Assembly (NCBI RefSeq): GCF_037975245.1
Contig: NC_092572.1
Coordinates: 11,169,769-11,233,768 of the forward strand
DNA: 64,000 nt
Direction of reading: 5' to 3'
Origin: Apostichopus japonicus
Lineage: Eukaryota > Echinodermata > Holothuroidea > Aspidochirotida > Stichopodidae
The position numbers and the translations under genes were made by a program. Below are positions 919 through 63,174 of this stretch, in pieces (the first letter of the stretch is position 1; each line of letters opens with the position of its first letter). A model generated the notes under the pieces. That model was not told where the DNA came from, searched no databases, and was given only the letters and a program-made list of their open reading frames with translations.

Positions 919-1021
919 TTAATAAGGTACTTGCCCGCTTTTCATATATATGTATCCTTCATCTTGTACGGGTGATGAGTCCATTCCCACATCTACATAT
1001 TTATGACTCGTGTCTAACTTA
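919..1021 (-). CDS. Tail exon of unit Z receptor, YIYM motif
   Basis: This is a last coding exon on the minus strand, starting after a ttgcag acceptor at 1021 and ending in TAA at 919. It encodes a polar tail with GYIYM, which fits the YxxM docking motif of PI3-kinase p85 SH2 domains. It is homologous to the tail exons of units B (11107-11263) and C (22009-22165). A codon read as CAA (Gln) in B is TAA here, so the tail stops about 19 residues early, just after QVPY. The exon sits left of a new unit edge at about 1265, so it belongs to a fourth, mostly missing repeat (Z). It could still be spliced onto unit A, because phase 2 matches the A cytoplasmic exon at 1871-1931. Confidence 0.65.
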
Positions 1022-4000
1022 CTGCAACTGGCGATAAGAAAGGATGTCTTCATTGTATATTGACTAAAACGCACAATTGGGATGAGTCTTAAAGTACCGG
1101 TACTGATAGTATGAACAGTATAAAATACATTATATAGTGGCGATAGCACTGGAAAAGTGACCAAACGGTTCCTTAACATTCTATTGAGAATACATGTTTT
1201 CCGTAATTCGTCGGCAGCAATGACTGGTCGAAGTAACTCAATAGGGGTATATCCTTTTTCATTCTATGAAAAAATCATAAGTAAGTTAAATATAACTACA
1301 ACTACTCTTCCCGTGCGCTAAATTCATGAAAATTTAGTTTAGTCAACATGTGGTTCTTTCTCCACAAGACCTATAACTGCTCCACGAGACCTACGAATTC
1401 TTTGAAATGGAAAATAAATGATTAAGAAGATTGAAACACAATAAAAGAACAAAATGTAGGGTGTACTTTCCACTTCATTAGTTGTCGACTAATGTAAGCA
1501 GTCATAGAGCTAGAACACATTGCTGAAATTTATAGGTAGTTCGATAGGATTTAATTCATTCAGAGCTCTCTTTTTAACGAAATTTTAACATCCATGTAAC
1601 ATTGATAAGGTACTTGCCCGCATCAATGACTGGTCGAAGTAACTCAATAGGGGTATATCCTTTTTCATTCTATGAAAAAATCATTCCCGTGAAGCACATA
1701 GTAAAACTGGTAAACCGCACTTTATATTTAAGAATGTCGAACATACTGTGGTGTGCATGCAAGACTTGATTATTTTCTTTTTATTGCAAAATTCTAGGAT
1801 TCTCGTTTCAAAGGTTAAAGTATGTTTACCAAGTGTCAATATATACTTAGTATAATAATATGCATGTTACCTGGGACACGTTGATCTCATACGGCCAGTT
1901 ACCGAAACAGGATAGGACCCTGATCTGTCTGCTATGTAGAAAATAGTGTAATAAAATAAAAAGCACACATGAGAACCCAGATGATTAAAATTAACCCGTC
2001 CTTTACTGCATGGAGTAATAGTCGATTCTTTTTTGATGGACATTCTTGTGTCCTTGTGTCTTAACATATTTATGAAAGACCATGTATCAATTATTCATAT
2101 CTTATTTCATCATTACATATTACACCACATACGAGTAAGTATTTACATCTCGTTAATATCTTGAAGACCCGATTCCTCCAAGCCTAGAAATCAACATTTG
2201 TATTATGTCACACGCATCAACTATCAAATACCTTTAGTTAGCCAACATCATTCCGAACATTTACCTAACTGCTGCTTCTGGTAAACATTCTTGTTCTTTG
2301 TCCGTTTTGAGCAATGTCTTCTATTTGTACAGATCAATGCACCGGTCAGAAAAGCAATTACAATGGCACAAGTGACGATCGTTGGTTTCTCCCACGTAAC
2401 GGTATTAGGACCTAAAGAAAATATCATAAAAGTTCCATTGTAAATAAAGGTTGTATCGTAACGTTACAACCTTTTCAAACGATTTTTGTGTCTATTCACG
2501 CTTGAACACACTTGTATCCGTAATACAATCAGTAAAACTGTCCAGGTCTCATGATATAAAGTGTTTGGAATCGTTCATAGTGTTAGAACCTGTGCTTTGA
2601 AGCGCTATATTGGAAGTACACTATCATTTTGTACTAAACATTAACAAAAACAATCCAAACGGACTGTGGTTATGCTTGACGTATTACATATTAATCAAGT
2701 CACATCATCAGGTGAAGTAAACTCTTGAATCTATGCGATCGCCGTTATTGGTAGCAATTTGTGCATCAGCGTTGAGAACAGACATATCTCTTCTTCCCGA
2801 TCGGATTCAAGAGTTTACTCCACCTGATGATGTGACTTTGTTAATAGGTATTACGTGAAGCATACTAGTCCAACATCAAAACAATGTTTATTTACAATAT
2901 GTCTACGACGACAATTGACCATAATTAAGGTACAAAGTAGTCCTTTCCTTGAACCTCTTTTGTGCAAAGGTTAACTGGGATATGCAAAATAATCATAGCT
3001 CCCAAATATGAATTCTTTCTTTTGTTCTGTACATGTGTAGGGTGCATATCATAAAAGTTCTATATTACAAGATATGTTGTAAACCTTACCAAATTTGTGT
3101 CTAGCATTAGTAGTTGCTTCCAAATTCCCATTGAGAAGTAACAGTTAAAACATGTAAATCATAATTACGGCAACCATTGAACTACTATTAAATGATATTG
3201 TGAAATGCTTTGTAATCAAATATGCATGTTTAACCATTTAAATTTACCAGGGGTGTTCGGTACTTCGAGTGTAATAACTAGCGTTACTGAGCCATTAGAG
3301 TAAATGTGTACATGCCAAAAATGTGAAAAGAGTACTCACTGAGGACCAATATCCTAACTCTGGAAAAATTGTTACTCTTATCGAAGGCTCGACAAATAAG
3401 AAAATTGTTATGAAAATTTCTTTTGCTTCGAAATATTGAAGTTTGGCACAGAGAAGTTATGTTATCTTTCGTAGTACGCTCGGGTGACAAAACATAACGT
3501 AACGCTAAGTTATCATTTCCAATGCTCAATGTTATATTTGAAATGTCCATCAAGCCAGACGTGTAATTCACACAGCATGTCGCAAAAATAGGCTCTCCTT
3601 CCTTGAACCTGTCTTTGTCAACAGAGAGTATTGGGATACCTGAAAGAAAAGACAATAGTTTATAATAGTTTATTGCAATACGTATAAGTAATAGAATAGC
3701 TTATCATTGTTATTCGTGATGTCATCTTGTATGATTCTTTTGTGGTTTTTTTACATCTGTATTTGTGTCATAAACAAAAATTGTATTAATTGATTCCCAA
3801 ATATTAAAAGCAAAGCACGAATAATTTATTTCTATCAATAAAAATAAAATCAACTGTATCGAACGATTAACTGGGCTTGTGTTGTAAAAAGAACAAAATG
3901 ACCTGACCGTATCAAACGGAGGAACACGCTATAGGTCTGTATCATTACGCACTAAGACCTTTGTTGAAAATTTAAAAGAAAACTCCTAAGCTTGTTTGTG

Positions 4001-5309
4001 TTAGACACTAGGAAGAGAATGAAGCTTAGGTGTATAAATATATCATGAAATATAGCTTCTGCGGCTGTAAAGCTTAGATTTTGTGTAGGTTTTAATGACG
4101 CTTTTAGTCAACAAATATTTCATTTTATCAGAGATAGCAGTTGAACATTTAAAAATATTTCAGTAAAACCGACAGCGAGATGTTCGTACCTGGTTGATAT
4201 TATTTTGAAGCAACGCTCAATTTCCCTTTCTGCAATATTCAAAGTTAAAACATCGAAAATATTCTGATATGATTAAGTTTTAATTACTAAACAATTTCTT
4301 ATACTGTACGAATCTCTTACATATCTAAAACGTTTTTAAACATATTAAGGATCATATTGTTAACAACTTAAAACGTGAAACAAATGTTTACAGCTTGAAA
4401 CATGTTATTACCTTGAACCATTAACGTCACGTCATGCGTTTCTACATCTTGTGCATTATATTTTGATTGTTGAATACATGAGTAATTTCCAGCATCTTCA
4501 AATTTAATTTGATTTTTCACTAATGCAGATATCGAACGGTTTAAGTTAACGGTCAAAGAGAAATCCTTATATCCAATGGCAGTCCCTTCCACGTAGGTAG
4601 CAATCACGTCTTCGTTTCTTTTCCATACCAGCACATCCAGAGATGAAATCAGATGACACCTCATAATAACATGTTCTCCTTCAATGACAACTTTCAAATT
4701 ATCTGAACGTTGTGCTAAGAAAACAATAGTTTTAAAGCAACAATAATAAACATTAACTATATTTGCATGCGTGCTACTTTGTGATAATATCGAAACGGTC
4801 TATATATTTGGAAACTGAGCAGGACGTTATCACCCATCGGTGAAGTTGTATTGCTACATAGACAAACACACAGCAGTTTGAATATTCAAGTCGGTCATTT
4901 AGTTAAGTTGAATCTACAATATTGATGTGCCTTCTTGGTCCGTAATATAATATGAAACGTTTTTGCAATAACTTAAGGTTTTAACTGCAGATGTTTATCA
5001 ATTTTCCTACTTGTTAATATATCTAATTTGTTTAGGATCACAGAATCTTGATAATGGTGCGAACTTGAAGTACAACTTTACACTGTCTGTAGATTCACTT
5101 TACTTCAGCAATGCTGATTGCATATAGATGGCGTTTAGATTAAAATAATATCATCGTTAACTACAACTCACGTGTTTAATCGCAGAGCAATTATGATGTT
5201 AGCGCAAGTAGAAGTTTAGAACTCATAAAAAGCACTTACCATTAACCGTTTTTAAAAGGGATGTCAGTACAAACAATAGTATTGGTGTAAATGGTATCGG
5301 AAGAAACAT
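919..5309 (-). CDS. Receptor A: two-Ig transmembrane receptor, Ig3 lost
   Basis: Exons on the minus strand are: signal peptide 5309-5240, Ig1 4714-4412, Ig2 3639-3340, membrane exon 2411-2265, cytoplasmic 1931-1871, and possibly the unit Z tail 1021-919. With that tail all phases match and the product is 327 aa. The start is the ATG at 5309, followed by a hydrophobic leader of 23 residues. Ig1 has the Cys, Trp and DAGNYSC landmarks. Ig2 has a double Cys (ATCC). The membrane segment lies around TIVTCAIVIAFLTGALIC. The Ig3 exon present in B and C is absent; an inverted repeat lies in its place at 2671-2864. Because all Ig exons are phase 1-1, the frame survives. The unit's own tail exon is mostly deleted (see 1535-1670), so the true 3' end is uncertain. 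Role: probable cell-surface recognition receptor; ligand unknown. Confidence 0.6.
1265..1670 (-). repeat. Rearranged 3' end of unit A
   Basis: Bases 1265-1530 match the left edge of units B (about 9850-10080) and C (about 20570-20830). Bases 1535-1622 match only the last part of the tail exon region, and 1625-1670 match the conserved block that lies between tail and cytoplasmic exons in the other units. The block is joined directly to the tail remnant, so the acceptor and the YxxM codons are deleted. This marks the Z/A junction and shows unequal exchange plus an internal deletion. Confidence 0.6.
1871..1931 (-). CDS. Receptor A cytoplasmic exon 1
   Basis: This is a 61-nt exon between a catag acceptor and a CCCAG|gtaac donor, entering in phase 1 and leaving in phase 2. 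It encodes about 20 residues with SYPV. The equivalents are 11797-11857 in B and 22728-22788 in C. The frame is open in all three copies, while the other frames contain stops in at least one copy. Confidence 0.65.
2671..2864. repeat. Inverted repeat replacing Ig3 of receptor A
   Basis: About 60 bases at 2671-2733 are repeated in inverse orientation at about 2803-2864, around a spacer of about 70 bases. Unit C has only the left arm and spacer (from 23682), then about 0.87 kb of unique DNA including the Ig3 exon. In A the sequence matches C up to the end of the spacer, then switches to the inverted arm and resumes beyond Ig3. This is the form expected of a fold-back duplication-deletion rather than a plain transposon insertion. 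Confidence 0.7.
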
Positions 5310-5499: not shown

Positions 5500-8400
5500 A
5501 ATATTTTCTTAGTTCCTAGTTTGATTCTTGAGTATTAAAGTGTTGCTTTATTAACGAAATCGACCAATTATATAACACATGAAGATTCATAGAAGTGATT
5601 TTTTTCCATGACATCGTTTCCATGTCTAAAAGCCGTACATACAAAGTAAAATCAAAGTATCTTGAAGGTATCTTTATTTAACCATGTAGTATGCATCAGT
5701 TTCTTGAACTGCAATATTGTTTTTGTCAAACCTTAACCTCGTTGCTATGTGCTGAGCTAAGGGGACCAATTATGTTCGTTGAGTAGCTTCAGGTTACCTT
5801 TATTCAACCATTACGTATTCTTCATTCTTCTACCGCCAGATTGGGGAAAGCCCGACAAAGTTTGACTTTCTTTTATAATAAATTATTAACAACTGTGACG
5901 TTGATTTCTAGAACAGACATTTTATTTTTCGTAAAATCTTCGTTTGTCTGACGAAAGTAAAAGACACGTCAAACCTTAACTTTTTCATATTTATTCTCAT
6001 TTCTTCATTCAGCTTTTTGTAACTCTAACGTTACATAATATTGACCTAGACAAAGTTTTATCGAATCCATAGTAATTGTTCTCTTTATGGATTTTAAGTC
6101 ACCTTGGAATCTTTTTGCCCATGTTCGCTTTATTATGCATGATGAATAAGCTTAGAACTCAACCCACTGATTGTTATTACAGCTGAAGTACGTTATTTGA
6201 ACAGATTTCTGTGTGAGATATATATTTTAATATCTTTCTTTTCTGTATTGACTTTATCTGTTTTGTTTGAACAATACGATAAATAGAGGATTGTTGCGGA
6301 TAACGTTAGCTGACATTGAAATAAAATCCTCATTAAACGACAGCAGAGACAACTGAAAGTAACAAGCAACTTCCAGTTTGAGTCTGTATCGAGCATGCGA
6401 GAATGGAATACGCAAGGTTCTTCGTTATCTTTTGAATCATTACCTTATAGCACATTGAAATATATGACTGTAAGTCTACTAGCTTTCGTAAGTATGGCAA
6501 CGTGTATTGAATTTTCTATCTTTATCTGGCCTTTTGTCAACTGCATGTAACAATGCAAAATCAAATGGTAACCAAATGGAATTAAAATGGTTATCAAATG
6601 ATAATCAAATAGAAAATATTTGAACATTCTTTCAGATATTAAAAACCATTTTAATACTCTTTATTGTGTGTGAAGTCGTTTTGTTACCACCACTTTTTTA
6701 TGTTTAGTATTGCGTGTATTAGATCGTGTAACTGATCAAGGTAATTTACCTTAAATATAATGTTTTCACACCACATGCACACTCCTAGGTAGAAATACAT
6801 GGATGAAATATTGGTCTATAGCAGACACGTGTTCACTTATAGCAATCATAAGTTCAAACATTACAGTATTGAAGAAGATTTTGTTTGGTACAAATTAGTG
6901 GTGATTTGCAGTGGATTCGCTTCTAGTACATAAACTATGAACACGGAATCGGTGAATGTTCGACAGAAGAGAAGATTAAATAGATCTCATAATTGAATTT
7001 CATCTTCACAATATTTAGCTTATTTAAGCCTCTGTGTGTCGAATACAGTGGTGGTAAGAATATCAACCACCTACGACGTGTTAATGTTCTCTAGATTATA
7101 TTCAAATTCGTTCCCTGGCTGTATCGTTCTGTTGATAATTTTATCTTTTCTAGTTATACAAGAAGCCTTTCATGTCAAAGACGAGTTACAAAAATGGAGC
7201 ATATATATGTAGCCTATACTTTACGACAGAGACACCAGTTTGATATTTAGATGAGTGCGTATCGTGGATTGCCTCCTTAGAAACCACTGTTTCCTCACTT
7301 TCATGTTTCATTTTTAGTTCAGGGATATGACGAATTGAAAACATTTAGATGTACGCAAACTCTCGTCATCAACGAAATGAGAATATGAATGCCGATGTGA
7401 GCACAACATCTATAGGTATGAGACACGAATAAATATGATATGTTACCAAAAGATAATTAGTTTGTAGCATCCATCGAAACAATAGTTAGACTAAGTAGAG
7501 TCACAGCCTTAGTTGTGTATTAACACTGCAAATTCTATACATCTTAATTAAATTGGCAATAACTATATTTTACCCGTTGTTGCGTGTTGATCAATACTTT
7601 TGATACCACCTACATTTAGTTTGTAAGAAATTAAGTACAGTTCTACACACTGTATGCGCATTATATTCCTCATAATCGGATACTCGTGGAGGCCGGCGCA
7701 CTCTGTCAGTTGTGCTATCTAGAATCTTCGGCGACACTCTGAATAGGGCAGGGAAATGGTTCACTTTCTCGTTTTCTATGTCTTAGTAGCACATATTGAT
7801 ACCTTATACGCAAGAAAAGCGTTGCAGTTTTAGACTTTTCCTCGTAAAGAATATTGTAGTAACTTCTCATTTTGTGTCAAATAAATGAAATATTTCCCAA
7901 TTTCTATAATTATTCAGCAGTTAGTCAACATTACTGGTGTGATAATTATCGATGTGGGGGGAAATTATCTCTCACCGAATAGCCGGGTTGCAAGATGTAA
8001 CGAAAATTATTTGCATCCCTGTTGTTCAGGTCATATGTGGTGTGGCATAGGACATCTATTTTGCAATTGTGCGTCGTGCGTAGATTTTAGACTAAATAAC
8101 AACTGAGGTCAGATTTGTTATTTGTCAAACAATCAAATTGCGCAGTTGCATCTTTTCCACCATGATGCTCGAATACGAAGATTGTCAATTATTGTGCAAT
8201 AGAAAAAAACTTAAACTTCTCGACTATAAACTTGATATTCATTGAAGAGTTGTCAATTTTCGTGAGCGCAACCACTTCCGGATGATTGTATATGTTATTT
8301 TCTTATTATCTCATCTTATTTTCTACCCATCCCGGGGTTCTACTCCCACACAGGAAACTCAACTACAGTGGGACAGTGGATCATGACCTTGCGATACAAG

Positions 8401-11106: not shown

Positions 11107-11263
11107 TTAAATTATTTTAGAGCTCTTGTTTTTGAACGAAATGTCCACATTCATGTTGCATTGATAAGGTACTTGCCGTCTTTCCATGTCTATGTATCCT
11201 TCATCTTGTACGGGTGATGAGTCCTTTCCAAAATCTACAGATCGATGGCTCGTGTCTAACTTA
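11107..11263 (-). CDS. Receptor B tail exon with YIDM
   Basis: This last exon follows a ttccag acceptor in phase 2 and ends in TAA at 11107. It encodes 52 codons including the stop. The motif lies in an acidic setting, QDEGYIDME, close to DEDGYMSMS in the R1 tail (36757-36891) and AEDGYTSME in R2 (61536-61637). That shared setting is my main evidence that the small receptors and the pseudokinase receptors share a tail. The incoming phase differs (2 here, 0 in R1 and R2), so the exon was not simply inherited unchanged. Confidence 0.75.
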
Positions 11264-14200
11264 CTGGAACTGGCGATAGGAAGGATACAACGCACAATTG
11301 TGGAAAAAAAGTCTTAAAGCACTCGTACTGATAGCATGAAGAATATGTATATCTAATTTCTATTTCGATCAATACTAGTAACGGTATATACTCTCAGTGA
11401 CTTTATGACTTGAAGCATGATATAAAATACATTATATATTGGCGTTAGCACTGGAAAAGTGGCCCAACTGGTCGCTTAAAGTAGAAACATATAACTAAAT
11501 AATATTTTTGAAAATTCATTTGATTGGAGTAAACATGTTTTCCGAAATTCATGGGCATCAATGACTTGTCGAAGTACTTCAGTGGGGAAAAATTTTCCTT
11601 TCTATGAAACTTCATTCCCGTGAAGCACATAAGCTATTACCTCTGGTAAACCACAATTTATTTAAGAATGTCGAACATACAGCGTTGTGGCAAGACTTTG
11701 GTGTTATTTTCTTTACAAATTACGGATTCTCGTTTCAACGGTTAAGATATGTTTCAAAGTTTTCACATGTTATAAGTACAATACCGTGCATTTTACCTAG
11801 GCCAAGGTGATCTCACACGGTCAGTTGCCGGAACAGGATAGGACCTTGCATTAACTGCTGTGTAGAAAATCGTGTAATAAAATAAAAAGTATACGTTAAA
11901 ACCCAGATGATTAAATTATTCGGAGAAGGATCAATTCGTTTATATCTCGTTTATTTAGCGAAAACCCTATCCCTCCGGGTCTAGAAGACAACATTAATTA
12001 TCAACTATCAACTACCCACAGTCAGTCAACATCATTCTTAACATTACCTAACTGCTGCACGTGGTAAACATTCTTGTTCTTTATCCGTTTTGAGCGCTGT
12101 CTTCTATTTGTACAGATCACTGCACCGGTCAGAAAAGCAATTACAACGACACACGTGATGATTGTTGGCATTTCCCATTCAAACGTATCAGGAGCTAAAG
12201 AGAATATAATAGCTCTGTTGTAAATAAAGTTTGTATCGTAATGTTAATACCATCATTCAGGTAGAGTTTCTTTCTCGATAAAGTCTCCATTCACTCTTGA
12301 AAACACTTCTATCCGTAGTGACTGTATCAGCTATGAATATCGGGTGCATGACCACATTTTGGATTGTTTGTGTCACAATCTCTCTAACAAGCGGTTTACT
12401 TCTAGAGATCCCTAACTGTACAAATTACTTAATTTTGAACAATACTTACAAAACTGTTAAAAACTTTATGTAGTTCACTAATTATGATCATATTGTTTTA
12501 TACTAACCTTGTGCATAAATGAAGTTTACCTCTGAGAAAGATGACCCAATGACATTCGTTGCCATACATCGGTAAAACCCTCGCAAACTTATTTTCAAAG
12601 TTACATTTAATCCCTTATAGTTGGTTTCATTGTCCTGGTTTGTGTTGGTTTCTATGTTAAAAGTCGTCCAGTCGGAGGATGAGACTTTCTGCTGTAAGTA
12701 AACTTCCGGAATGGGATTTCCATTAGCTTCACATATGACGTTAGCTTCTTCGCCTTCTTTAACTTGCCACTGTTTAAGGGCAGGGTAAATCGTTACGACT
12801 GGCAAGTCTATTATAAAAAAATACAAAGAAGAGTAAACATTTTAGTCCAAACATCAAAACGATGCTAATGTTTATTTACAATATGTCTACGAAAACGATA
12901 ATTGATCATAATTAGCGTAAAAAGTAGTCCTCGCTTTGATATCTTGAGGACCTATATTTTTTTGCAAATGGTTAACTGGGATATGTAAAATATCATAGCT
13001 TCCAAATATGTATTATTTCTCCTTTACCTGTAAATGTCTAGGGTTAATATCATAACAGTTCAAAATTACAAGATATGTTGTAAACATAATCAAAACCTTA
13101 GAAAATCTTTTCTTAGAATTTTGTCTGTTGTCTGTAGTTGCTCCCACACTCCCATTGAGAAGAAACAAATACAATCTGAAATTCATATTGAAGGCAGCCG
13201 TTGAACTACCGTACAAATGACATTGTGAAATGCTCTGCAATCAAATACGCAATTTTCTTTGATGCATTTATATTCACCAGGGGTTTTCAGTACTGCGAGT
13301 GTAATACCTATGGTTACTAAGCCATAAGAGTAAATATGTACATGCATAGTACTTACAGAGGACCAATATCTTAATGCTGGAAAAATTGTTACTCTTATCG
13401 AAGGCTCGACAAACAAGATATTTGTTATGAAAACTTCTTTTGCTTTGAAACATTGAAGTTTGGCACAGAGAAGTTATGTTATCTTTCGTAGTACGGTCGG
13501 ATGACAAAATATAACGTAACGGTAAGTTATCATTTCCAATACTCAATGTAAAATTTGAAATGTCCATCAAGCCAGACGTGTATTTCGCACAACATGTCGC
13601 GAAAATAGGCTCTCCTTCCTTGAACCTGTCTTTGTCGACAGAGAGTATTGGGATACCTGAAAGAAAAGACTATAGTTTATAATAGTTTATAGCAATACGT
13701 ATAAGTAAACGAATAGCTTATCATGATTATTCGTGATTTCATATTGTATTTTGTATGATTCTTTTGTGTTTTTTGCCACATCTGTATTTGTGTCATGAAC
13801 ATAAATGTATTAATTGATTTCCAAATGACACGCAAAGCACGAATAATATATTTCCATCAATAAAAATAAAAATAAAATCAAGTGTATGGAACGATTGACT
13901 GGGCTTGTGTTATAAAAAGAACAAAGCGAATTGACCGTATCAAACAGAGGAACACGCCATAGGTCCTTACCATACGTACTAAGACGTTTGTTTGAAATTA
14001 AGCAAAACATTATAAGCTTGTTTGTATTCGACACTAGGAAAAGAATGAAGCTTAGATATTTGGTGTAACAGTATATCATGAAATATAGCTTCTGCGGCTG
14101 TAAAACTTAGAGCTTGGTAGGTTTTAATAACGCTTTTAGTCAAGCAATATTTTCATCTGAGAAAGCAATTGAACATTAAGAATATATTGCAATAATACTG

Positions 14201-15275
14201 ACAGCTAGATGTTCGTACCTGGTTGATATTATGATTAAAAAATGCTCAGTTTCAATTTCTGCAATATTCTAAGTCAAAACATCGAGAATATTCTGATATG
14301 ATTAAGTTTAATTACTTAACAATTTCTTATCATAACGTTTTTAAACATAAAGAAGATCATATTGTTAACAAATTAAAACGTGAAACTAATGTTTACAGCT
14401 CAAACATGTTATTACCTTGAACCATTAACGTCACGTCATGCGTTTCTACATCTTTTGCATGATATTTTGACTGTTGAATACATGAGTAATTTCCAGCATC
14501 TTCATATTCAATTTGATTTTTCATTAATGCAGATATCGAACGGTTTAAGTTAACGGTCAAAGAGAAATCCTTAAATCCGATGGCAGTCCCTTCCATGTAG
14601 GAAGCAATCACGTCACCTTTGTGTATCCATACCAACGTATCCAGAGAAGAAATCAGATGACACCTCAGGGAGATATGTTCCCCTTTAATGACAACTTTCA
14701 CATTATCTGGATGTTGTGCTAAGAAAACAATAGTTTTAAAGCAACAATAATAAACATTAACTATATTTGCATGCGTGATACTTTGATCTAATATAGAAGC
14801 GGCCTGTTTATTTGGAAACTAAGCAGGACGTTATCACCCATCTGTGAAGTCGTTTTGCTACATATACAAACACACACAGTTCGAATATTCAAATCGGTCA
14901 TTTAGTTAAGTTTAATCCACAATATTGATGTTAAGGTTTTAACCTGATATGTTTTTCAACTTTTCTACTTGTTAATATATCTAAATTGTTTTATCAAGGG
15001 TGGTGTCACAGAGTCTTGATAATGGTGCGTAGATTCTGTAGGTCTGTATGGTCTGTAGATTCACTTTACTTCAGCAATGCTGATTTCATATAGATGGCAT
15101 TTAGATTAAAATAATATCATCGTTAACTACATCTCACGTGTTTAATCGCAGAGCAATTATGATGTAAGCACAAGTAGAAGTTTAGAACTCAGTAAAAGCA
15201 CTTACCATTAACCGTTTTCAAAGGGGATATCAGTACAAACAATAGTATTGGTGTTAATGGTATCGGAAGAAACAT
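11107..15275 (-). CDS. Receptor B: three-Ig receptor with YIDM tail
   Basis: Exons on the minus strand are: signal peptide 15275-15206, Ig1 14718-14416, Ig2 13656-13357, Ig3 12807-12508, membrane exon 12194-12048, cytoplasmic 11857-11797, tail 11263-11107. They total 1338 nt, and every junction phase matches, giving 445 aa. Residues 1-23 are a leader, and the Ig domains are about 24-124, 125-224 and 225-324. Ig1 has DAGNYSC, Ig2 has a double Cys, and Ig3 is I-set-like with GFYRC. The membrane helix is near 335-354 and is followed by basic NRRQRSKR. The tail carries YIDM at 417-420, a fit to the p85 SH2 site YxxM. There is no kinase domain. Ig1 and Ig2 resemble those of R1 at 56.8 and 56.0 kb. 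It is probably a cell-surface recognition receptor; ligand and partners are unknown. Confidence 0.8.
11540..11601 (-). other. Conserved block between cytoplasmic and tail exons (unit B)
   Basis: This block follows a catag in unit B and recurs at about 1194-1263 (Z), 1622-1669 (A) and about 22464-22533 (C). One frame reads like GYIPPELLRPVIDADEFQKT in C, and differences between C and Z include several silent ones. It could be an alternative cytoplasmic exon. However, phases do not let it sit between the cytoplasmic and tail exons, and the C copy has AA in place of the AG. Coding status is unproven. Confidence 0.3.
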
Positions 15276-22008: not shown

Positions 22009-22165
22009 TTAAATTCTTTTAGAGCTCTTGTTTTTGAACGAAATGTCCACATCCATGTAACATTGATAAGGTACTTGCCTTCTTTCTATATCTATGTATC
22101 CTTCATCTTTTACCGTTGATGAGTTCTTTCCAACATCTACAGATTGATGGCTCGTGTCTAACCTA
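22009..22165 (-). CDS. Receptor C tail exon with YIDI
   Basis: The exon follows a tttacag acceptor in phase 2 and has the same length as in B (157 nt). The setting KDEGYIDIE is retained, but the +3 Met is Ile. A QVPYQCYMD sequence downstream keeps a second tyrosine. The difference from B may alter the SH2 partner. Confidence 0.7.
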
Positions 22166-50700: not shown

Positions 50701-53700
50701 TGTTCATATACAGTAGTCTGTAACATTAACATTTCTTAGACTTACCAATACAATTCAGAAAGCAATGAACATAACTGACTTATTTAACATTTAAATAGAT
50801 CTTTCACATAGCGATCACAAGTCTTTGATAGTCTATTATGATTCACTTTTCAAATATGTAGCCGAAAGCAAACACACACGTTTCGGAATGATTAAGACAT
50901 TCTTAAACATGCATCTCTCCATGAACAAAGCTGACCTTCCTATTACCTATATCTACATTGCTTACCGTATGCAAACAGTTTAATCGATTTTCTTGCTCCA
51001 CTCTTGTTAAATTTTCCCAATGCTATGCACTCCACCAACGTTATGTTTTCTTGTATTACGAATGAAAGACTATTTTCAGAGTAGTGTGTTCCATCTTCAT
51101 TCTTGGCTTGGATACTACTACTGACTGTGGTATTCGCTGTGTTAATGGTCATTTTCAAATCCGCCTCTGGATTCGAATTCGAAGAGATGCACTTAAACGT
51201 ATGTTCTGAACCTTTTATTACATCTATAGAATTCTCTATTTCCTTATTATTTACGAGTATGTGAAGCTGAGGTGGCCCTAGGATGGAAAAGAAAAAGAAA
51301 ACTCCTTTACGGTCAGTAATTAACAACCTTAAACCTTATTGAGCTTACAATCTACTTTTCAAATTCATTTTTTATGGCACTACATTATACATATAAATAC
51401 ATATACATCAACATAACCCCATGAGATTAAAGGTTTCCTTGCACAGAGAGCGTGACATTTAACTATAGTACTGAAAAAACACCCTATACATTCCAACAGA
51501 TTATGCTACACGGTAAGTTAAATGAAGAATACAAATAATTAAGGCATTATAGAAAATTGTTTAGTTCCTTCCTATTTACTGCTGTTTTATATAATTCACT
51601 TCCATTATCATATATATGCTCTTCCACTGAAGGCAGACGTAAGTCGAACCAGTCGGCGCACCCAACCCAAGAAGTAGAAGGCCAGGATAAACCCCACAGT
51701 GCTTTCGAGTCGACAGGCAAGAATTTTTATCACAAAAGAAAGACCAAAGAAGAAGCCCACCTAAATTGCAGAAACATTGAAGTCAAAGATTACATAAATC
51801 TGCCAAAGCCATCTGAAGACTCAATATGGAAATCCTTTGATGAGCAACTATAAGAAGAACTACCAACAGAAATAGGTGAAATGCATAATGAGCAGCTGAC
51901 TAATCTGGAGACTCAGGTCTACAAGAGACTCGTAGACAGATTTGGAGTCAAACCAGCAGTCTCCAAAAAGACTGATAAAAAACAGCAATGCTCAAGACAA
52001 CAAAGAAAGCTAAGGCGCTTAAAGAAAGACACTAAACGGCAATACAAACAAGCCCTAAGAGATGGAAACAAAGTGCACTCAACAAATCTGAAAAAGGATT
52101 TCCTTAAGCTTGTACGCCTACACAACAAAGTAAGGAAACTAGAGCTGAAATCGCAGCAAAGAAAAACTGCCAGCAAAGAACAGCATCAATTTCGACAAAA
52201 TCCACACAAATATGCAAAACGTCTACTAAATGAGAAGCAGACCAGATCTCCCTCCTTCAGTAAAACAGCTGCAGAGAAATTCTTCAAAAATGTCAACAGC
52301 GATAAAAGGCGTGACTACAAATGCCACCCTCTAAAGGGCTTGAAGAGACCACCAAAGCCGACCAAGCCATTCAAAACCAAACCCCCCAGTCTGTCAGAGT
52401 TAAATAGCTACCTTCAGAAAAGAAGAAATGCCAGTGCTCCGGGCACCAATCGCATTCCCTACCTAGTGTGGAAAAAATGCCCTAGAACAACACAGCTACT
52501 ACACGAAGTAATCTGTGGTATCTGGAGAACAGCTGCAATACCTATGAGCTGGAGAACGGGAGAGACAATTCTTATATCAAAAGAAGAGAACACCAGTGAC
52601 CCTTCCTGCTTCAGACCCATCACACTGAAGAACTCAAGTGGCAACCTCGGAATGGGTATTCTCGCTCAAAGAACCATCAATTACCTGACAAACAATAACT
52701 ATATTGACCAATCCATTCAGAAGGGTTTCATGGAGAAGATATCAGGATGTGTGGAACACACAGAAGCACTAACTGAAATGCTCCAAGATGCCAAAAAGAA
52801 TGGCAAACCGATTGTGACAACATGGTTGGACCTGCAAAATGCATACGGTACTGTACCACACAATCTTGTACAGTTCGCTTTAGAGTGGTATCATGTTCCA
52901 GATCACATCAGGAAGATCATATTTAAATAAGTACTATGATGAGCTATTCATACGTGTCAAAACAACTGACTGGACAACTGACTGGATACAGTGCACGATT
53001 GGAGTCTTCCAAGGCTGCCCACTTTCCTGCATCCTGTTCCTGGCCGTTTTCAACCTGTGCCTCGACCTCCTAGACCAGTTCAACCACCTTGGATACTGCA
53101 TGAGTGGATCTGACATCACATCATCTGCCAAAGCATGTGCAGATGACCTAAACCCTCATAGCTAGGAGCCCAGAAAGCTGTCAAGAACTTGTTGATACAA
53201 TGAACATCTTCCTCAAATGGACTCGGACCATGAAAGCTAAACCAAGCAAATGCAGATCCCATGCCATGAAGAAGGTCGTCCCCAATGCAGAACAGAAGCA
53301 ACAAGGACACAAAACTCAATATGTGGCATACGACCCCGGACTAGAAATAGACGGAGAGCAGATTGCCTATATCCACAGTCAACCCATGCGGTTCCTCGGG
53401 AAGATGATTTACAATGACCTGAAAGACAATAACATCAGGGACTTGGTAAAAACAAAGCTGTCAGAGATGCTGCAGAAAACCGACACAAATCAACTAAGTG
53501 GAATTATGAAGCTGTGGATTTACAACAATGCAAGCGTACCCAAAATGACATGGGAATTCACCATCTACAACTTCCCAATTACCTACATCACAAGTCTAGA
53601 AGCTATATGCACCAAATACCTGAAGCAGTGGGCAAGAATAAGCAGATGTACCACCACCAGCGCTCTGTATAGGAGCAGGAAACACTATGGTCTGCAACTG

Positions 53701-56700
53701 AAAAAGCTCACCACTTCAGTCAAATGTATGCAAGTAACCAAGTACCATCTAAATAAGCACTCTAGAGATGGAAGTACCCAGACATTCTACAGGAAATGCA
53801 TGGAAAGTAAGAAAAGCAAAGCCAGGTGGAATGGTATGAAAGAATTAGAACAAAAAGAACGCCACCTAATCCTGAATGAGATGGCTAGGGGCCAGACCGA
53901 CAGAGCAGGTCTCGGTTACAAAAGAAACCAGAAGCTGATCAGAGACATGAGTCACCAAGAACATAGGAAATGCCTCACCGGGCTAGTGAAAGATGTAGAC
54001 GAGGAGGACATGTTGGTCTACCTTTACGGATGTGCAAAACAAGGACAGTGGTTGAAATGGGAGTCTGCCATGCAGGTCGACACCTCCTGGAAGAAACTTC
54101 TGTATATCTGGACACCAGAATTGCTGTCCTTCCACATCAATGCAATTCATGATCAACTTCCTTCTCCTGCCAATCTGAAGCTGTGGGGGAAGACCAATCT
54201 AGGACTCTGCCAACTATGTCATCTTCGTCATTGCACATTGTTCCACATCCTAAATGGTTGCAGCTACTCACTACAAAGTGGAAGGTATAACTGGCGCCAT
54301 GACCAAACACTGAGGGCAATTGCATCAGGTCTGGCACCGTACATCGTAGAGGCAAACCAGAAGAGATTCAATACATCTGAGACTGTGGATTTTACCTCTA
54401 CAATATCCTTTCGTACAGCTGATGGCACAACGTACCGAAATCCAGTCCTGCCACTTCCAAAGACAGAGCCAACCAACATCCTGAAGAAGGCCAGTGACTG
54501 GATATTCTTGATGGATGAGGAACACAAGCAAATAGTGTTCCCTCCAGAAATTACTGAGACCGCTAAGAGACCAGATATCACCATCTTCTCCAAGAAAACA
54601 AAGAACGTTATCATCGTAGAGCTTACAGTTCCTATGGAGGAGAATCTGGCAAATGCATATGCTAGAAAGAAGTGTAAATACCAAGACCTAGTGGCTGACT
54701 GCGAGAGCAGAGGTTGGTCTACATACTACTTTCCGATAGAAGTAGGAAGCAGAGGCTTTTGCAACACATCAGTCAACAAATGTCTTGCATCCTTGGGCAT
54801 CCCTAAAGGAAAGAAGAAGGCTATAACCGATACAGCAGCCAATATCACACTCAGAGCGAGCTACATCATCTGGCTATGCAGAAACTCAAAGGCATTCAGA
54901 CAGATGGAGCTACATACAACCCCAGCAATTTGCTCTGAGGGAAGTGGGATGGTCGAGCGCTCATAAAACCAGGTTTAACCCACCAATGTCTGGTCCCAAG
55001 TCCAGAGACCTCAGAGCAAACTAATCTAGACAGAGATATTCTGCATAAGGTGAATTTTTCCCTACTATGTCACCTTCACAGAGTGATGTACCAGGAGTGC
55101 TTATCTTCAAACGGATAAATAGGCTCCGAGAGCGCTGGTGTTCTACCAATGAACTATTCCGCATATGATATTCTACCGTTTTCTATATTTGGCATCTTCA
55201 CCGTTCATCTTTACCGTTAATTTTGAAGCTACTAGTTGCAACCGCTCTCAGAAATCAGTAGCAAGTTGAATACACCCACTCATCGTGTCATCAAAGTGAA
55301 AGAGAAACACTTAGTTCAAACACGTATAGGTTAAGTCAGGGATACTCCTTAAAATGTTGTAATACGATAAGAGATGAGCTGATATTCATCCTATAACAAC
55401 GGAATCAGGGAATAAAAGGGTGGTATTAACTTGTTGACGTTATTTTCCCCCAATATAAGTATGACAAAGCACCGTCATTTACATATAGGCTTAGGCTTGT
55501 AAGTTAACTTACATTTGTGCTTGCTTTTAACATTCTTAATATGGATATGATTATCAATTCATATCAAGATACAGCATTACAATATAACAACAAAATAATT
55601 CAAATTCAAATTCTTTATGGAGTGATATTTGGGAAAGTTTCTTTCAATGAGTAACAATTTGCTGTGTGTTTTTGTAAAGAAACTGTTCAAAGAAAGAGAA
55701 ACTTACAGTAAACCTGTAATTGTGTAGCTGTTGAAACTTGTAACTCATTTTGAGCTATGCACTGTAAATTCTGGTCGATGAACCTTCGTAAACTGGTGAA
55801 AGTTACATTGCTGCATTCAGTATATAAACCTTGCAATGTCTGTTCTTGAAATTGCTTTACGAAGCTTCCAGTTATTGTTTCATTACCAATATACCACAAC
55901 AATACTATTTCTTCAAGATTCATCGAATATGCAATGCAACAAGTGGCTGAAATACAATCCCCTTCAACTGTAGTGTTTTGTGAAACTGACACAGTTGGAA
56001 AGCCTACGAAATTAAAAAGAAAATTTGAATCGCTGAGATGTGGTATTATCATTAAATTTCTATACATTACTCGCAAAACATATCAAAGATGAACATCAGA
56101 GGCATGTATGAAAATAATATGTCATCCAGGCTATCAAACAGTTTTCAGTTTAGACTGTGCCTTTCGAAATTTAAGCAATAGTGTATTATTAACTCTAAGG
56201 AAGGGTCGTATAAATGATTGTTGAGTATTAATAGTTCTGATCAATATAAATGCATGCCTAGTCTCCCTATTACACAGAGTTTGATGGGGTTTAGATGGTG
56301 AAATCGAAAGCAACGGTTACCATAAAAAAATACTTCCAACACTTTAAAAATTGCATGATGATAGTGTAATAGTGTTAGGTTAAATGTTAACGGCGATATC
56401 ATGACATGACACAAAGGTCAATTCATCAGTTATAACAAGCTAACAGAAATTCTAGTTGAGACATACTACATGTTTTGGTTGATTGCACACATTCATGTAT
56501 CGATATGAACGTATTTTTATCTCTTAAATAGGATACATAAAATTATCTATATACCTTGAACCTGTAGCTTAAATGTTGTTGTTAAAATGCGTCCTTCATT
56601 CCGTACTTGCATGCAAGTATAGTTTCCAGCATCTGAAAATCCCACATTTGTAATATTCAGCGTGGCTGTTTTAGCATTCTTGGGCGGTTTGTTGTATTTA

Positions 56701-57898
56701 CTCAGATCAATGTATTTATCATTATATTTCCATAACAACGTGTGTAGTTGAGGTGCAATTCTGCATTCTAAACTAACGTCCTGGCTCACAAGGACAAGCT
56801 GAACTTGATATTTGCAAAAACATGTTCTCACTGTAATCATAAACAAAATGTATAAATCAAATCATCAGATATATATATTTAAAGTAGCTTGAAGCACTTA
56901 AGAATAACGTTATATAAATTCATTACACTTAATAGGTATTATTTTCTTTTCTTGGTTGGAGGTATTTGTAGATGCATCTGGTAACAGCAGCTTAAACGAT
57001 GTCGTTAGAGAAACTAACTGAGAATACCCTCATCTTCTTAACATATATCCACGTTTTTCAAATATATCAGGTACCAAGGATAGATCGACAACAACAATAT
57101 CCCAGTAGTAACGAATTGTAGAACACGTTGCAAGATGACGTCTGCGGTCCACTTCCTTTAGTAGGGTTACATTTTGGTCAAACGAGAATATATTGAGATG
57201 GTATTTTCAAATCACAATGGTGTGTTTTTCTTCAAGCATGCATGTTCCTCTAAATGGTGCAATTTTCAATACATTTGATGTAATATAAATATAATTAAGG
57301 GGCCCATTGTAACTTTTTGAGGGAATTACGTGTTTATATGGTTGTACGGACGGTTTTAAATGAAGTAAGAACGCCTTTGAAATGCGATTCATTGTGTTAA
57401 AGCAAATGTTACCCTGTTAACATGTTAACAAATATTAAAAGGGACACAAGCCACACACATGCAGTGCACAGCCAATATATTAAACAACGTTTACCGGGTA
57501 TGAACGGAGAAATTGAATATGACAAATTCAGTCACAGAAGATTGTCCTCGTCATAAACATTTTCCATTCAATCCTCACCGCGGTGTATAACATGTCTGTT
57601 GGATTGTGAATAATTCAATAGACTAATGCATTGGTGCTGATAATGAAGACCTACCAAGCGTCACAAATGGACAAAACTACACGACTAGGACATTAACAAT
57701 TACCATTTAAGGAAGTGTATTAGCAAGGTAGAATACAGGAAACAATGATATTCTTATGGGTCTTTCTCGTATTCTTTTTCGTTAAAACTATAACCTATTC
57801 TAACCATTAGAAAGATACCAGGAAACAGAGCTGTACTCACTGTTAAGAAACGTTAATAAGAGAATAAATTTACTCCCGTGACCGTTTCCTACAGCCAT
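36757..57898 (-). CDS. R1: eight-Ig receptor pseudokinase, VEGFR/PDGFR class
   Basis: Twenty exons on the minus strand total 3765 nt, and every phase matches, giving 1254 aa. They are 57898-57841, 56830-56555, 56003-55707, 51277-50966, 49605-49291, 48835-48518, 48187-47864, 47438-47115, 46923-46594, 45766-45652, 44206-44124, 43286-43236, 42205-42041, 41772-41662, 41530-41376, 40451-40332, 39063-38958, 38653-38587, 37874-37772, 36891-36757. Order: leader, eight Ig domains (20-851), membrane helix (about 863-884), juxtamembrane, kinase fold (about 935-1210) and tail with YMSM. From HPGLSMKK to the end of the fold it aligns without large gaps to VEGFR-type kinases, including a PPET turn and SDSWS. 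The Gly-loop, VAIK Lys, alpha-C Glu, HRD Asp, catalytic-loop Asn and DFG Gly are all replaced, so catalysis is very unlikely. The kinase insert is short. Ig1, Ig2 and the tail link it to receptors A-C. Confidence 0.85.
37772..37874 (-). CDS. R1 exon 19: end of kinase C-lobe
   Basis: This 103-nt exon enters in phase 2 and leaves in phase 0. It encodes LQECYSKDPMNRLPLRNLKE, the counterpart of the CW...P..RPTF..L segment that closes tyrosine kinase domains. The usual Trp after Cys is Tyr, and the Arg is kept. The R2 exon at 63072-63174 has the same length and phases. Confidence 0.8.
38587..38653 (-). CDS. R1 exon 18: kinase subdomain X
   Basis: This 67-nt exon runs from phase 1 to phase 2. With the previous exon it reads YGAHGIKVDID, matching the SLGASPYPGVKID turn of VEGFR-type kinases, then an acidic helix and DLPID. 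The donor is gtgagt. Confidence 0.7.
38958..39063 (-). CDS. R1 exon 17: activation-segment end and subdomain IX
   Basis: This 106-nt exon starts in phase 0 and ends in phase 1. It reads LPPET where active kinases have WMAPE, then SDSWSVAICICDVFAYG, the counterpart of SDVWSFGVLLWEIFSLG. The structural Asp and Trp of subdomain IX are kept, so the C-lobe fold is probably intact. Confidence 0.85.
39709..39764. repeat. (TA)n microsatellite
   Basis: A TA/AT tract in the R1 intron between exons 16 and 17. Confidence 0.85.
40332..40451 (-). CDS. R1 exon 16: degenerate catalytic loop and DFG
   Basis: This 120-nt exon encodes 40 residues in phase 0. HPGLSMKKILL stands where HRDLAARNILL is expected, so the catalytic Asp is Gly and the metal-binding Asn is Lys. 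KIYDFC stands for KICDFG, so the DFG Gly is Cys while its Asp stays. The exon is otherwise well aligned and has clean splice sites, so this is a maintained gene with changed catalytic residues rather than a decayed one. Confidence 0.88.
41376..41530 (-). CDS. R1 exon 15: hinge, short insert and alpha-E
   Basis: This 155-nt exon encodes NYQPVGTLDDW at the hinge/alpha-D, then only about 15 residues before VLEYANQIVAGMEMI, the alpha-E helix. VEGFR and PDGFR kinases carry a much longer insert at this point, so the insert has been lost or never expanded here. Confidence 0.8.
41662..41772 (-). CDS. R1 exon 14: alpha-C region
   Basis: This 111-nt exon is phase 1 to phase 1. MPHHRALIKTVGLCID matches the GHHLNVVNLLGAC segment of VEGFR-type kinases. 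In an ungapped alignment the alpha-C Glu falls on Tyr, with a Gln two residues on. Confidence 0.75.
42041..42205 (-). CDS. R1 exon 13: degenerate glycine loop
   Basis: This 165-nt exon follows a long T-rich tract and cttag. LKKGMLLDRWMGTIV aligns with LKLGKPLGRGAFGQV, so all three loop glycines are replaced (Asp, Trp, Thr). KSVFVTSVK aligns with the VAVK strand, so the ATP-anchoring Lys is Thr. ATP binding in the usual manner is unlikely. Confidence 0.78.
43236..43286 (-). CDS. R1 exon 12: juxtamembrane
   Basis: This short exon of 51 nt follows ttgcag. Two donors lie four bases apart (GGAG|gtatgt and GTAT|gtatga). Only the second keeps the frame into exon 13. Confidence 0.55.
44124..44206 (-). 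CDS. R1 exon 11: juxtamembrane
   Basis: This 83-nt exon runs from phase 2 to phase 1 and encodes a polar stretch beginning PDTETICTSLDD. It is open only in the frame that fits both neighbours. Confidence 0.65.
45652..45766 (-). CDS. R1 exon 10: transmembrane
   Basis: The helix runs around IIITPALILAAVLVVTFIIY and is followed by RNVRR, the usual stop-transfer charge. Tandem donors (AGAT|gtaagt and TGTAA|gtaaga) lie four bases apart. The first would lead to a stop in exon 11, so I chose the second. Confidence 0.8.
46179..46561. mobile_element. hAT-like MITE in R1 intron 9
   Basis: The ends CAGTGGCGGAGC and its imperfect inverse (CAGTGGTGCAGC) define about 383 bases with no gene. A gttttcg flank occurs on both sides (left gttttcga, right gttttcgt), consistent with an 8-base hAT-type target duplication. 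The right end lies 33 bases from the splice donor of R1 exon 9. Confidence 0.6.
46594..46923 (-). CDS. R1 exon 9: Ig domain 8
   Basis: This exon is 330 nt, phase 1-1. The landmarks are LTCLAMGG, LVWLTKS and QVTCTADS, with an extra Cys in EEQRCNSTV near the end. It is the membrane-proximal Ig domain. Confidence 0.8.
47115..47438 (-). CDS. R1 exon 8: Ig domain 7
   Basis: This exon is 324 nt, phase 1-1, starting DLPEISI. The cysteines lie in SVTCNVKG and YAECKIES. The usual Trp position reads AYILYLSI, so the core Trp is missing. It is a divergent Ig fold. Confidence 0.75.
47676..47792. repeat. (TA)n microsatellite
   Basis: A long TA/AT tract in the R1 intron between exons 7 and 8. It is prone to length change. 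Confidence 0.85.
47864..48187 (-). CDS. R1 exon 7: Ig domain 6, GC donor
   Basis: This exon is 324 nt, phase 1-1. The landmarks are LTCNASN, FDWRVAG and EVTCVALD, with an extra Cys after the Trp strand. The exon ends CATG|gcaagt, a GC-AG intron. A GT donor that fits length and phase is not visible nearby. Confidence 0.75.
48518..48835 (-). CDS. R1 exon 6: Ig domain 5
   Basis: This exon is 318 nt, phase 1-1, starting DVPDLNI. The landmarks are LTCIAAN, VDWMKHG and NVSCVSSG. There are several N-glycosylation sequons. Confidence 0.8.
49291..49605 (-). CDS. R1 exon 5: Ig domain 4
   Basis: This exon is 315 nt, phase 1-1, starting DLPRLGI. The landmarks are LTCKARF, LRWTINN and IVVCSADG. The donor is gtaagc. 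Confidence 0.8.
50966..51277 (-). CDS. R1 exon 4: Ig domain 3
   Basis: This exon is 312 nt, phase 1-1, starting PPQLHIL after a pyrimidine-rich acceptor. The cysteines are in FKCISSN and LVECIALG. The core Trp position is Met (LKMTIN). It lies on the near side of the antisense LINE. Confidence 0.78.
51622..54966 (+). pseudogene. Dead LINE ORF: reverse transcriptase plus restriction-like endonuclease
   Basis: The reading frame holds a basic N-terminal region, then reverse transcriptase with APGTNRIPY, DLQNAYG (motif A, near 52829), GVFQGCPLS (near 53001) and ADD (motif C, near 53140). Downstream lies a C-x2-C-x7-H-x4-C zinc knuckle (near 54208-54262), then RHDQTL, then RPD...VELTVP (near 54571-54634). 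The last two resemble the PD-(D/E)xK restriction-like endonuclease of R2/NeSL/R4-type LINEs. At least three lesions break it: an in-frame TAA at 51851, a frameshift near 52925 and another near 53145. It is therefore a dead copy. There is no apurinic-type endonuclease frame upstream. Confidence 0.8.
51630..55140 (+). mobile_element. LINE with restriction-like endonuclease, antisense in R1 intron 3
   Basis: This is an insertion of about 3.5 kb between the Ig2 exon (ends 55707) and the Ig3 exon (starts 51277) of R1, in the opposite orientation. The coding part is less AT-rich than its surroundings. The 3' untranslated part continues to about 55140. Ends are approximate; I could not find a clear target duplication or poly(A) tail. 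It does not interrupt an R1 exon. Confidence 0.7.
55707..56003 (-). CDS. R1 exon 3: Ig domain 2 with double Cys
   Basis: This exon is 297 nt, phase 1-1. EGDCISATCC resembles EGEPIFATCC of Ig2 in receptors A-C, and NLQCIAQ resembles their FLICRAF. Both groups start with a Gly-x-Pro step. This is one of the two domains that tie R1 to the small receptors. Confidence 0.8.
56555..56830 (-). CDS. R1 exon 2: Ig domain 1
   Basis: This exon is 276 nt, phase 1-1. LHTLLWKYND and DAGNYTCMQV match LDTLVWIHKGD and DAGNYSCIQQ in Ig1 of receptor B, and both groups end in VQG. This is the probable membrane-distal, ligand-facing domain. Confidence 0.82.
57841..57898 (-). CDS. R1 exon 1: signal peptide
   Basis: The ATG is at 57898, followed by a short polar stretch and KFILLLTFLN, then donor gtgagt in phase 1. 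This phase matches the Ig1 exon. It is the only leader exon I found in the right place and phase; an earlier untranslated exon is possible. Confidence 0.65.
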
Positions 57899-61535: not shown

Positions 61536-61637
61536 TTAATGTTTGGCCATTACTATATTTCCTTCCATTGACGTGTATCCATCTTCGGCTAGGCTTTCAC
61601 ATGAAAGTTTCCTAGTCAGATCAATCTCGTTAATTTC
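61536..61637 (-). CDS. R2 tail exon copy 2, YTSM
   Basis: This exon follows a tgtcacag acceptor in phase 0 and ends in TAA. It encodes 33 residues with AEDGYTSME, matching DEDGYMSMS of R1 in setting and exon phase. It is the distal of two tail exons, so it is either an alternative last exon or a spare copy. Confidence 0.7.
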   Translation of the reverse strand, partial: EINEIDLTRKLSCESLAEDGYTSMEGNIVMAKH

Positions 61638-62491: not shown

Positions 62492-62593
62492 TTAATGTTT
62501 GGCCATTACTATATTTCCTTCCATTGGCGTGTATCCATCTTCGGCTAGGCTTTCACATGAAAGTTTCCTAGTCAGACCAATCTCGTTAATTTC
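62492..62593 (-). CDS. R2 tail exon copy 1, YTPM
   Basis: It has the same length and phase as the copy at 61536-61637 but reads YTPM, and differs at only a few other codons. It is the nearer last exon for the kinase exon at 63072-63174. Both versions keep the YxxM form. Confidence 0.7.
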   Translation of the reverse strand, partial: EINEIGLTRKLSCESLAEDGYTPMEGNIVMAKH

Positions 62594-63071
62594 CTGTGAC
62601 AAAGAAGCAAATAGTATAACGGGATAGAAACCAACCGTCTTTATTAATAACTAAATACAATGCATTAGTTAAACTTCAGGAAAACATATATAATGACCAT
62701 GTACATGTCTTCTAGCCATCTTTTTCGTTCTATTGGTATCATAATATATTGAACAAATTTATTTCCCTCTTGATAAGAATGTAAGCAAATTGTGAACACA
62801 TATACACTATAGTGTCTGGGTTTAACTGCTTCCCATCAGTATTACAAACTGACAAAAGTGGCTTCGTTCAAGGCTAAGAATTACGTACTTTGTAATGAAA
62901 AACATGAAAACTATATCCAAACGTCCATTACGTCATAGACTCCTTTAATATAAAGGGTACATCTTCACAGATAGGAATGCCTTCCATTACTTTCTGCATC
63001 TTTCGTGTGTTTATATGATAACTTGAGGAATTAAGACGAACGAACAATTCTAGTGTGCTTGTATTACCTAC

Positions 63072-63174
63072 CATACTCTGGTCAGTCATCCACGTACGCA
63101 GTGTTGTCCGCAGGTCTCTCAAAGGCGGACGATCTGCAACTTCAATCGATTTACAATTCATCAAGCACTCCAAA
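63072..63174 (-). CDS. R2 kinase C-lobe exon (partial gene)
   Basis: This 103-nt exon is phase 2 to phase 0, as in R1 exon 19. It follows caaattgcag and ends ATG|gtaggt. It encodes LECLMNCKSIEVADRPPLRD and then LRTTLRTWM, the counterpart of LQECYSKDPMNRLPLRNLKE. The RP of tyrosine kinases is present here. The rest of R2 lies beyond the right edge, so its catalytic state is unknown. I saw no convincing match to R1 exon 18 in 63200-64000. Confidence 0.72.

Follow-up and report, generated by a model that had tools for sequence, protein, structure and literature searches.

A predicted family of receptor pseudokinases with YxxM tails and kinase-less offshoots in the sea cucumber Apostichopus japonicus

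A stretch of 64,000 nucleotides of the Apostichopus japonicus genome (C12:11169769-11233768, contig NC_092572.1, hereafter the window) carries on its minus strand three kinase-less immunoglobulin (Ig) receptors, A, B and C, a receptor, R1, with a kinase domain that its residues mark as dead, and the 3' end of a further receptor gene, R2. On the basis of the sequences in the window, its flanks and the whole genome (671,581,487 bases, 35 contigs), we consider it probable, with moderate confidence, that R1 and R2 belong to a conserved family of receptor pseudokinases signalling by phosphotyrosine docking, probably through p85 and PI3K, and that A, B and C are kinase-less offshoots. An earlier note, made from the window only, had described three small and two larger receptor genes, one of them partial, in a single orientation, and this arrangement was borne out. 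The modelled exons of R1, A, B and C are all open and their phases match at every junction. The search for more units past both edges, which that note had proposed, recovered D, E, F and G on the left and R2-R6 on the right.

The kinase domain in R1 and in the genome

R1 (56830-36757) is composed of eight Ig domains, each encoded by a single phase 1-1 exon, a transmembrane exon, seven kinase exons (K1-K7) and a tail exon, and its 17 exons were joined into one open model. The kinase region matched the Pfam tyrosine-kinase model with an E value of 5e-25. In K1 (42041-42205), the glycine loop is lost and the beta-3 lysine is replaced, its position reading VFVTSV. K2 (41662-41772) encodes alpha C, K3 (41376-41530) spans the hinge to alpha E with no kinase insert, and K4 (40332-40451) reads HPG for HRD and DFC for DFG. 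K5 (38958-39063, with PPE and SDSW), K6 (38587-38653) and K7 (37772-37874) complete the domain. R2, also called a pseudokinase in the earlier note, shows within the window only its last kinase exon (63072-63174) and two near-identical tail exons; its pseudokinase nature is invisible there, and it is K1-K5, right of the window, that show HPG and DFC.

The catalytic-loop exon of one member was compared with the whole genome, and we recovered at least 134 places at E<=0.001 on 15 contigs, R1-R6 included (150 of 248 candidates scored). Matches free of stops made up 133 of the 134 listed. The genome also contains canonical HRD kinases, and a canonical HRD exon gave 77 places, none of them shared with the 134-place list when the two were compared by eye. 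Some of the 134 places may be broken genes, and the family probably counts more than 100 genes, as judged from these matches.

A residue census covered 65 catalytic-loop exons (54 distinct), taken from R1-R5 and from 60 of the 76 places counted outside R1-R5, R6 included. The HRD aspartate was lost in 64/65, the asparagine in 62/65 and the DFG glycine in 65/65 (Cys in 64), and the His, Pro and Phe were invariant across the 65 rows. A phase-0 AG stood immediately before the exon in 60 of the 60 fetched. Further K1 exons, one of them that of R6, had Thr or Ser at the beta-3 lysine position in 11/11 (aligned by eye), and their glycine-loop site read RWMGTI in ten and RWIGTI in one. The dead motif is uniform in open exons, which therefore suggests function rather than decay. 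Overall, the residues agree with the earlier claim of a catalytically dead receptor kinase.

Tails and the proposed docking mechanism

The tail of R1 (36757-36891, DDEDGYMSM and stop) carries YMSM, as does that of R3; R2 carries YTPM and YTSM, R4 YIIM, R5 YTPM, B YIDM and C YIYM. The two last exons of R2 (62492-62593, EDGYTPM and stop; 61536-61637, EDGYTSM and stop) are possibly alternative tails. Over a 264-kb stretch, the pattern [DEN]GYxxM had one plus-strand occurrence and eight on the minus strand, and each of the eight lies in a tail exon of B, C or R1-R5. When 4.2 kb was read at each of eight distant loci, six had a YxxM tail (YVPM, YVPM, YTAM, YVPM, YIPM, YTSM). Every kinase-bearing tail read, in R1-R5 and at these six loci, has a methionine at +3, the tails having been found partly by this motif. 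The likeness of YxxM tails described in the earlier note held for B, C, R1 and R2, but not for A, which reads DEGYIDI and has no YxxM. At L089, L091-L093 and L096, a second tyrosine (YEVP, YEIP, YQVR, YEIP, YETP) lies 8-11 residues ahead of the YxxM tyrosine and is possibly a further docking site. The genome carries two p85 iSH2 exons.

We propose that a tyrosine-kinase domain would have turned into a pseudokinase already in a common ancestor of the family and would afterwards have been retained as a dead domain. An outside ligand would bind the distal module of Ig1 (V-like) and Ig2 (C-like), and the receptors would cluster. Another kinase, either a partner receptor or one of Src type, would then phosphorylate the tail tyrosine in trans, and the phosphorylated YxxM would dock the SH2 domains of p85 and lead to PI3K signalling, in the manner of ErbB3 or CD28/ICOS. 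A, B and C, as offshoots keeping Ig1-Ig2 and a short tail, would serve as extra docking receptors, with the YxxM-less A and D perhaps acting as decoys or co-receptors. ErbB3 (HER3) has an impaired kinase, and its tail YxxM sites dock p85 after trans phosphorylation. It shares with the present family the combination of a catalytically impaired receptor kinase and tail YxxM, but ErbB3 is a single gene that combines an L1-CR1-L2-CR2 ectodomain with several YxxM, whereas the present family is very large and has Ig ectodomains and a single YxxM in each tail.

Several points weigh against docking as a general explanation. Of the four tails read in kinase-less receptors, two, those of A (YIDI) and D (YMAV), have no +3 methionine; the earlier claim that docking replaces kinase signalling agrees with the dead kinase and the widespread YxxM, but not with these two receptors. 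No tail exon was found in the 4.2 kb read at L094 and L095. YxxM was present in 14/16 tails compared to 1.15 expected from shuffles, a count that is biased upward because several distant tails were recognised partly by YxxM, and the 16 tails are related rather than independent, those of R1 and R3 and the two of R2 being near-copies. The phase-0 AG found before each of the six distant tail exons was the sole splicing check made on them. A full joined model was obtained for R1 only, R3 having been matched one exon at a time and R2, R4 and R5 likewise but for K6, and single exons having been read at the other loci. Finally, the weakest of the 134 catalytic-loop matches (about 30 bits) were only partly read, the locus L067 retains the catalytic aspartate and L082-L084 retain the asparagine.

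A different reading of the same tails is that they hold an AP-2 type YxxPhi sorting signal, in which case the proteins would be scavengers or decoys that cycle fast and remove a ligand, and the pseudokinase would be structural. The residue at +3 is hydrophobic in 16/16 tails, and a sorting signal would cover A and D as well. Against sorting stand the methionine shared by the kinase-bearing tails, with the selection by motif mentioned above, the acidic residues before the tyrosine in many tails and the Pro or Ser at +2 in most, which, from general knowledge, is like PDGFR sites. We consider a sorting signal unlikely, and phosphotyrosine docking is the reading that we retain.

Kinase-less receptors, shared Ig domains and duplication

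In local alignments, Ig1 of A-C matched Ig1 of R1 at 11.2-16.0 standard deviations above 300 shuffles and Ig2 matched Ig2 of R1 at 15.3-16.0, with z <=3.5 against all other R1 domains. For Ig3 of the small receptors, there was no clear R1 counterpart (z <=3.8). When 31 domains of A, B, C, D, F, G, R1 and R3 were placed in one tree, 8/8 Ig1 rows formed a single group (support 87/86), as did 8/8 Ig2 rows (97/91); the tool warned of long branches meeting. The match of Ig1 and Ig2 between the small receptors and R1, first noticed in the window, was therefore upheld by the shuffles, and the tree, which had been proposed as a check, grouped the domains of A-C with those of R1 rather than far from them. 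Chance likeness of the Ig domains is ruled out by the shuffle scores and the tree together.

The best model of B Ig1 (14416-14718) was V-like, with a predicted local distance difference test (pLDDT) score of 83, the four others scoring 34.5-61.0 and residues 1-11 lying below 50. Among the best 50 PDB matches listed for it, NKp44 came first, together with many antibody heavy-chain (VH) and T-cell receptor V domains and entries of DNAM-1 and TIGIT. B Ig2 (13357-13656) was modelled as a beta sandwich (best 82.9, others 56.5-79.0); its fold search gave no match at E<=0.001, the top matches being weak and mostly generic Ig. The Ig1 and Ig2 models were built on four and six sequences, respectively. 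CD28/ICOS, DAP10 and NITR-type proteins are likewise short receptors with Ig domains, or adaptors, and a YxxM tail is present in several of them; the B Ig1 model matches V-set domains best. No sequence tie between them and A-C was observed, and A-C have their Ig1 and Ig2 in common with pseudokinase receptors.

A (27169-22009), B (15275-11107) and C (5309-919) each have signal-peptide, Ig1, Ig2, transmembrane and tail exons with AG/GT splice sites, and an Ig3 exon is present in A and B and absent from C. In A, these exons lie at 27100-27169 (signal peptide), 26244-26546 (Ig1), 25197-25496 (Ig2), 24341-24649 (Ig3), 23110-23256 (transmembrane) and 22009-22157 (tail). B has, besides Ig1 and Ig2, its signal peptide at 15206-15275, Ig3 at 12508-12807, transmembrane exon at 12048-12194 and tail, DEGYIDM, at 11107-11255. 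The exons of C are found at 5240-5309 (signal peptide), 4412-4714 (Ig1), 3340-3639 (Ig2), 2265-2411 (transmembrane) and 919-1013 (tail, DEGYIYM, with a short stop). The C-B alignment breaks off shortly before the B Ig3 exon and picks up again downstream of it, and the C frame stays open after the loss of Ig3 because this exon is phase 1-1. In A Ig2, Cys82, a conserved Ig cysteine retained in B, C and R1, is replaced by Phe. A block of 270 bp upstream of C (6277-6546) is 96% alike to one upstream of B (16263-16532), the alignment around it being about 83-85% alike, and is possibly a shared control region.

The ectodomain of R1 is encoded at 56555-56830 (Ig1), 55707-56003 (Ig2), 50966-51277 (Ig3), 49291-49605 (Ig4), 48518-48835 (Ig5), 47864-48187 (Ig6, with a GC donor), 47115-47438 (Ig7) and 46594-46923 (Ig8), followed by the transmembrane exon at 45656-45766. 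A signal-peptide exon at 57841-57898 is a tentative candidate, based on hydropathy and donor, and there may be an additional juxtamembrane exon.

Left of the window, D is a further kinase-less receptor with signal peptide, Ig1-3, transmembrane segment and tail, and partial matches were obtained for E (Ig1), F (Ig1-3, the Ig3 match with a stop) and G (Ig1-2); no kinase exon was matched within 100 kb on this side. The B protein gave at least 73 matches in the whole genome, all on C12 (99 of 135 candidates scored). In the right flank, R4 and R5 have kinase exons and tails, K6 not being found, and R6 lies further on. A broken A-type copy with stops in Ig1 and Ig3 (C12:11238464-11240481) immediately precedes the R2 kinase exons; neither an Ig2 nor a transmembrane exon was found in this copy or the R2 5' region right of the window. 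R2 may once have carried an A-type ectodomain.

The earlier proposal of expansion by segmental duplication was supported: A, B and C are tandem units spaced 10-12 kb, with longest aligned blocks 76-85% alike, and R3 is a second R1, all 17 exon types being matched. Identity between R1 and R3 rises from 39% in Ig1 through 40, 50, 55, 68, 63 and 71% to 90% in Ig8, and reaches 97% in the transmembrane exon, 96-100% in the kinase exons and 98% in the tail. The synonymous divergence (dS) falls from 1.28 in Ig1-2 to 0.04 in the kinase, and long aligned blocks of intron are found mainly in the 3' portion of the gene, which suggests that this portion was recently homogenised or duplicated. Since dS changes as well, divergence of the R1 and R3 ectodomains by selection alone is ruled out. 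From these comparisons, a recently shared 3' signalling part thus appears to be joined to older, divergent ectodomains.

In the R1-R3 kinase exons, the nonsynonymous divergence (dN) was 0.008 and dS 0.038, for a dN/dS of 0.21 that comes from 5 and 6 changes only. Among A-C, dN/dS was overall 0.56-0.83, near relaxed, and per exon 0.33-1.20 (0.98 for Ig2 of B and C). Positive selection in A-C is unsupported, the A-C transmembrane comparison (1.20) being the only one above 1, and the changes were not enriched in predicted loops (p 0.83 and 0.63, three copies only). The recognition system proposed in the earlier note consequently found no backing in this variation. A role in recognition or immunity would nonetheless be plausible. 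Its fullest form, a large sea cucumber recognition system derived from a receptor tyrosine kinase (RTK), with more than 100 dead Ig receptors, V-C offshoots, PI3K-docking tails and variable distal Ig domains linked to a homogenised signalling module, is a tentative proposal that falls short of being probable.

These values also bear on whether the genes are decaying relics of a burst of duplicates that are losing function. The stops in the A-type copy and in the Ig3 match of F would fit such decay, as would the loss of Ig2 Cys82 and YxxM in A, the loss of Ig3 in C and the near-relaxed dN/dS of A-C. Taking all kinase-bearing genes together, we rejected it on the low kinase dN/dS, the conservation of the dead motif itself, the nearly complete absence of stops from the catalytic-loop matches and the 17 open exons of R1, and we regard it as highly improbable as a general account. 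The A-type copy upstream of R2 may be such a relic, and possibly the R2 5' end too.

Elsewhere in the window, retroelement-like open frames lie at 51854-54963 within the R1 Ig2-Ig3 intron, on the opposite (plus) strand, with only a weak match to a zinc-binding reverse transcriptase. A minisatellite with units of about 146-149 bp occupies 31022-32026, between A and R1. A viral contig scan and an Rfam scan gave nothing informative, nor did a Pfam scan of the 28-36.6 kb stretch (plus strand, two of three frames).

Ancestry, published expansions and significance

R1 exons K4, K5, K6 and K7 measure 120, 106, 67 and 103, with phases 0-0, 0-1, 1-2 and 2-0. The corresponding sizes are 123, 112, 100 and 106 in KIT/PDGFR/VEGFR and 123, 71, 138 and 106 in FGFR. 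With this reference pattern, taken from general knowledge, the sizes and phases of R1 appear to resemble KIT/PDGFR/VEGFR and not FGFR. The VEGFR/PDGFR/KIT receptors (classes III and V) are alike in the Ig ectodomain and, by this pattern, apparently in the phases from the HRD exon on, with near-equal sizes except for K6; R1 differs by its eight Ig domains and by the absence of catalytic residues and kinase insert. FGFR differs in that it has, from general knowledge, an intron after SDV, whereas R1 K5 continues through alpha F to a phase-1 end.

Kinase profile scores were 50.2 bits for VEGFR2, 53.6 for FGFR3 and 54.8 for JAK2. When the family profile was compared with the PDB, EGFR (as labelled), FGFR3, JAK2 and FGFR1 were highest among the best 60 of 937 chains, and no VEGFR or PDGFR chain was among these 60. 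FGFR is therefore among the top profile scores, with EGFR and JAK2, and the PDB scores do not favour VEGFR/PDGFR/KIT. The VEGFR/PDGFR ancestry put forward earlier fits the exon sizes and phases, but neither the missing kinase insert nor these scores. Overall, exon phases favour VEGFR/PDGFR and sequence scores FGFR, and we place the ancestry no closer than within the Ig-type RTKs.

Receptor pseudokinases are usually single genes. Beside the FGFR family stands FGFRL1, a kinase-less relative. PTK7/CCK4 is a receptor pseudokinase with seven Ig domains; it differs in being usually a single gene and in its dead motifs, and we know of no YxxM-tailed tandem family of this type.

The receptors could also be co-receptors or decoys in growth-factor signalling (by FGF, VEGF or PDGF) during growth and regeneration, and not a recognition system. 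The high rank of EGFR, FGFR3, JAK2 and FGFR1 would favour this role, whereas the number of catalytic-loop places is far above that of known growth-factor co-receptors (general knowledge) and the distal Ig domains of R1 and R3 are only about 40% identical. We find it somewhat unlikely overall. It would gain from a published family of 38 Fgfr genes, which may be the same family: according to the 2018 paper, its expanded members fall mostly in a separate clade and their transcription is activated in gut regeneration (PMC6018497).

Among the families that the genome paper of 2017 describes as expanded and clustered is 'tyrosine-protein kinase receptor' (PMC5638244), and a 2026 preprint repeats both expansions (PMC13228809). 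The published 'Fgfr' and 'tyrosine-protein kinase receptor' expansions may be the dead-kinase family, an identity that we offer as a guess; automatic annotation could name the family Fgfr because FGFR is among the best profile matches. A second expanded kinase family, in arrays, was observed at L108-L111 (C18, C21, C17, C19), with HGD for HRD and with the catalytic Asp, the Asn and DFG kept; the nearest PDB matches of L109 were EGFR (9p9u) and RET, then FGFR1 and VEGFR1. This family could be an equal candidate for the published expansion.

The words 'inactive', 'kinase-dead', 'kinase domain' and 'pseudokinase' are absent from the texts PMC5638244, PMC6018497 and PMC13228809, and 'catalytic' appears there only in the gene-ontology wording of the 2017 paper. 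In a literature search, among the titles and abstract starts listed, no such family was described in Apostichopus japonicus, the 'pseudokinase' match there being MLKL. We found no prior report of the kinase-dead state of this family.

The genome-wide extent of the pseudokinase family goes beyond the window-only view of the earlier note. Expansions to which published work ascribes a part in regeneration or signal recognition may consist in large part of docking receptors with a dead kinase. With a conserved family of probably more than 100 members in one animal, the role of a dead kinase domain would become testable by comparison. If the tentatively proposed recognition system is true, these receptors would be an invertebrate parallel to the YxxM immune co-receptors, unnoticed because of their annotation as FGFR or tyrosine-kinase receptors, and, if their ligands are non-self, recognition based on receptors would have arisen by a route not seen before.

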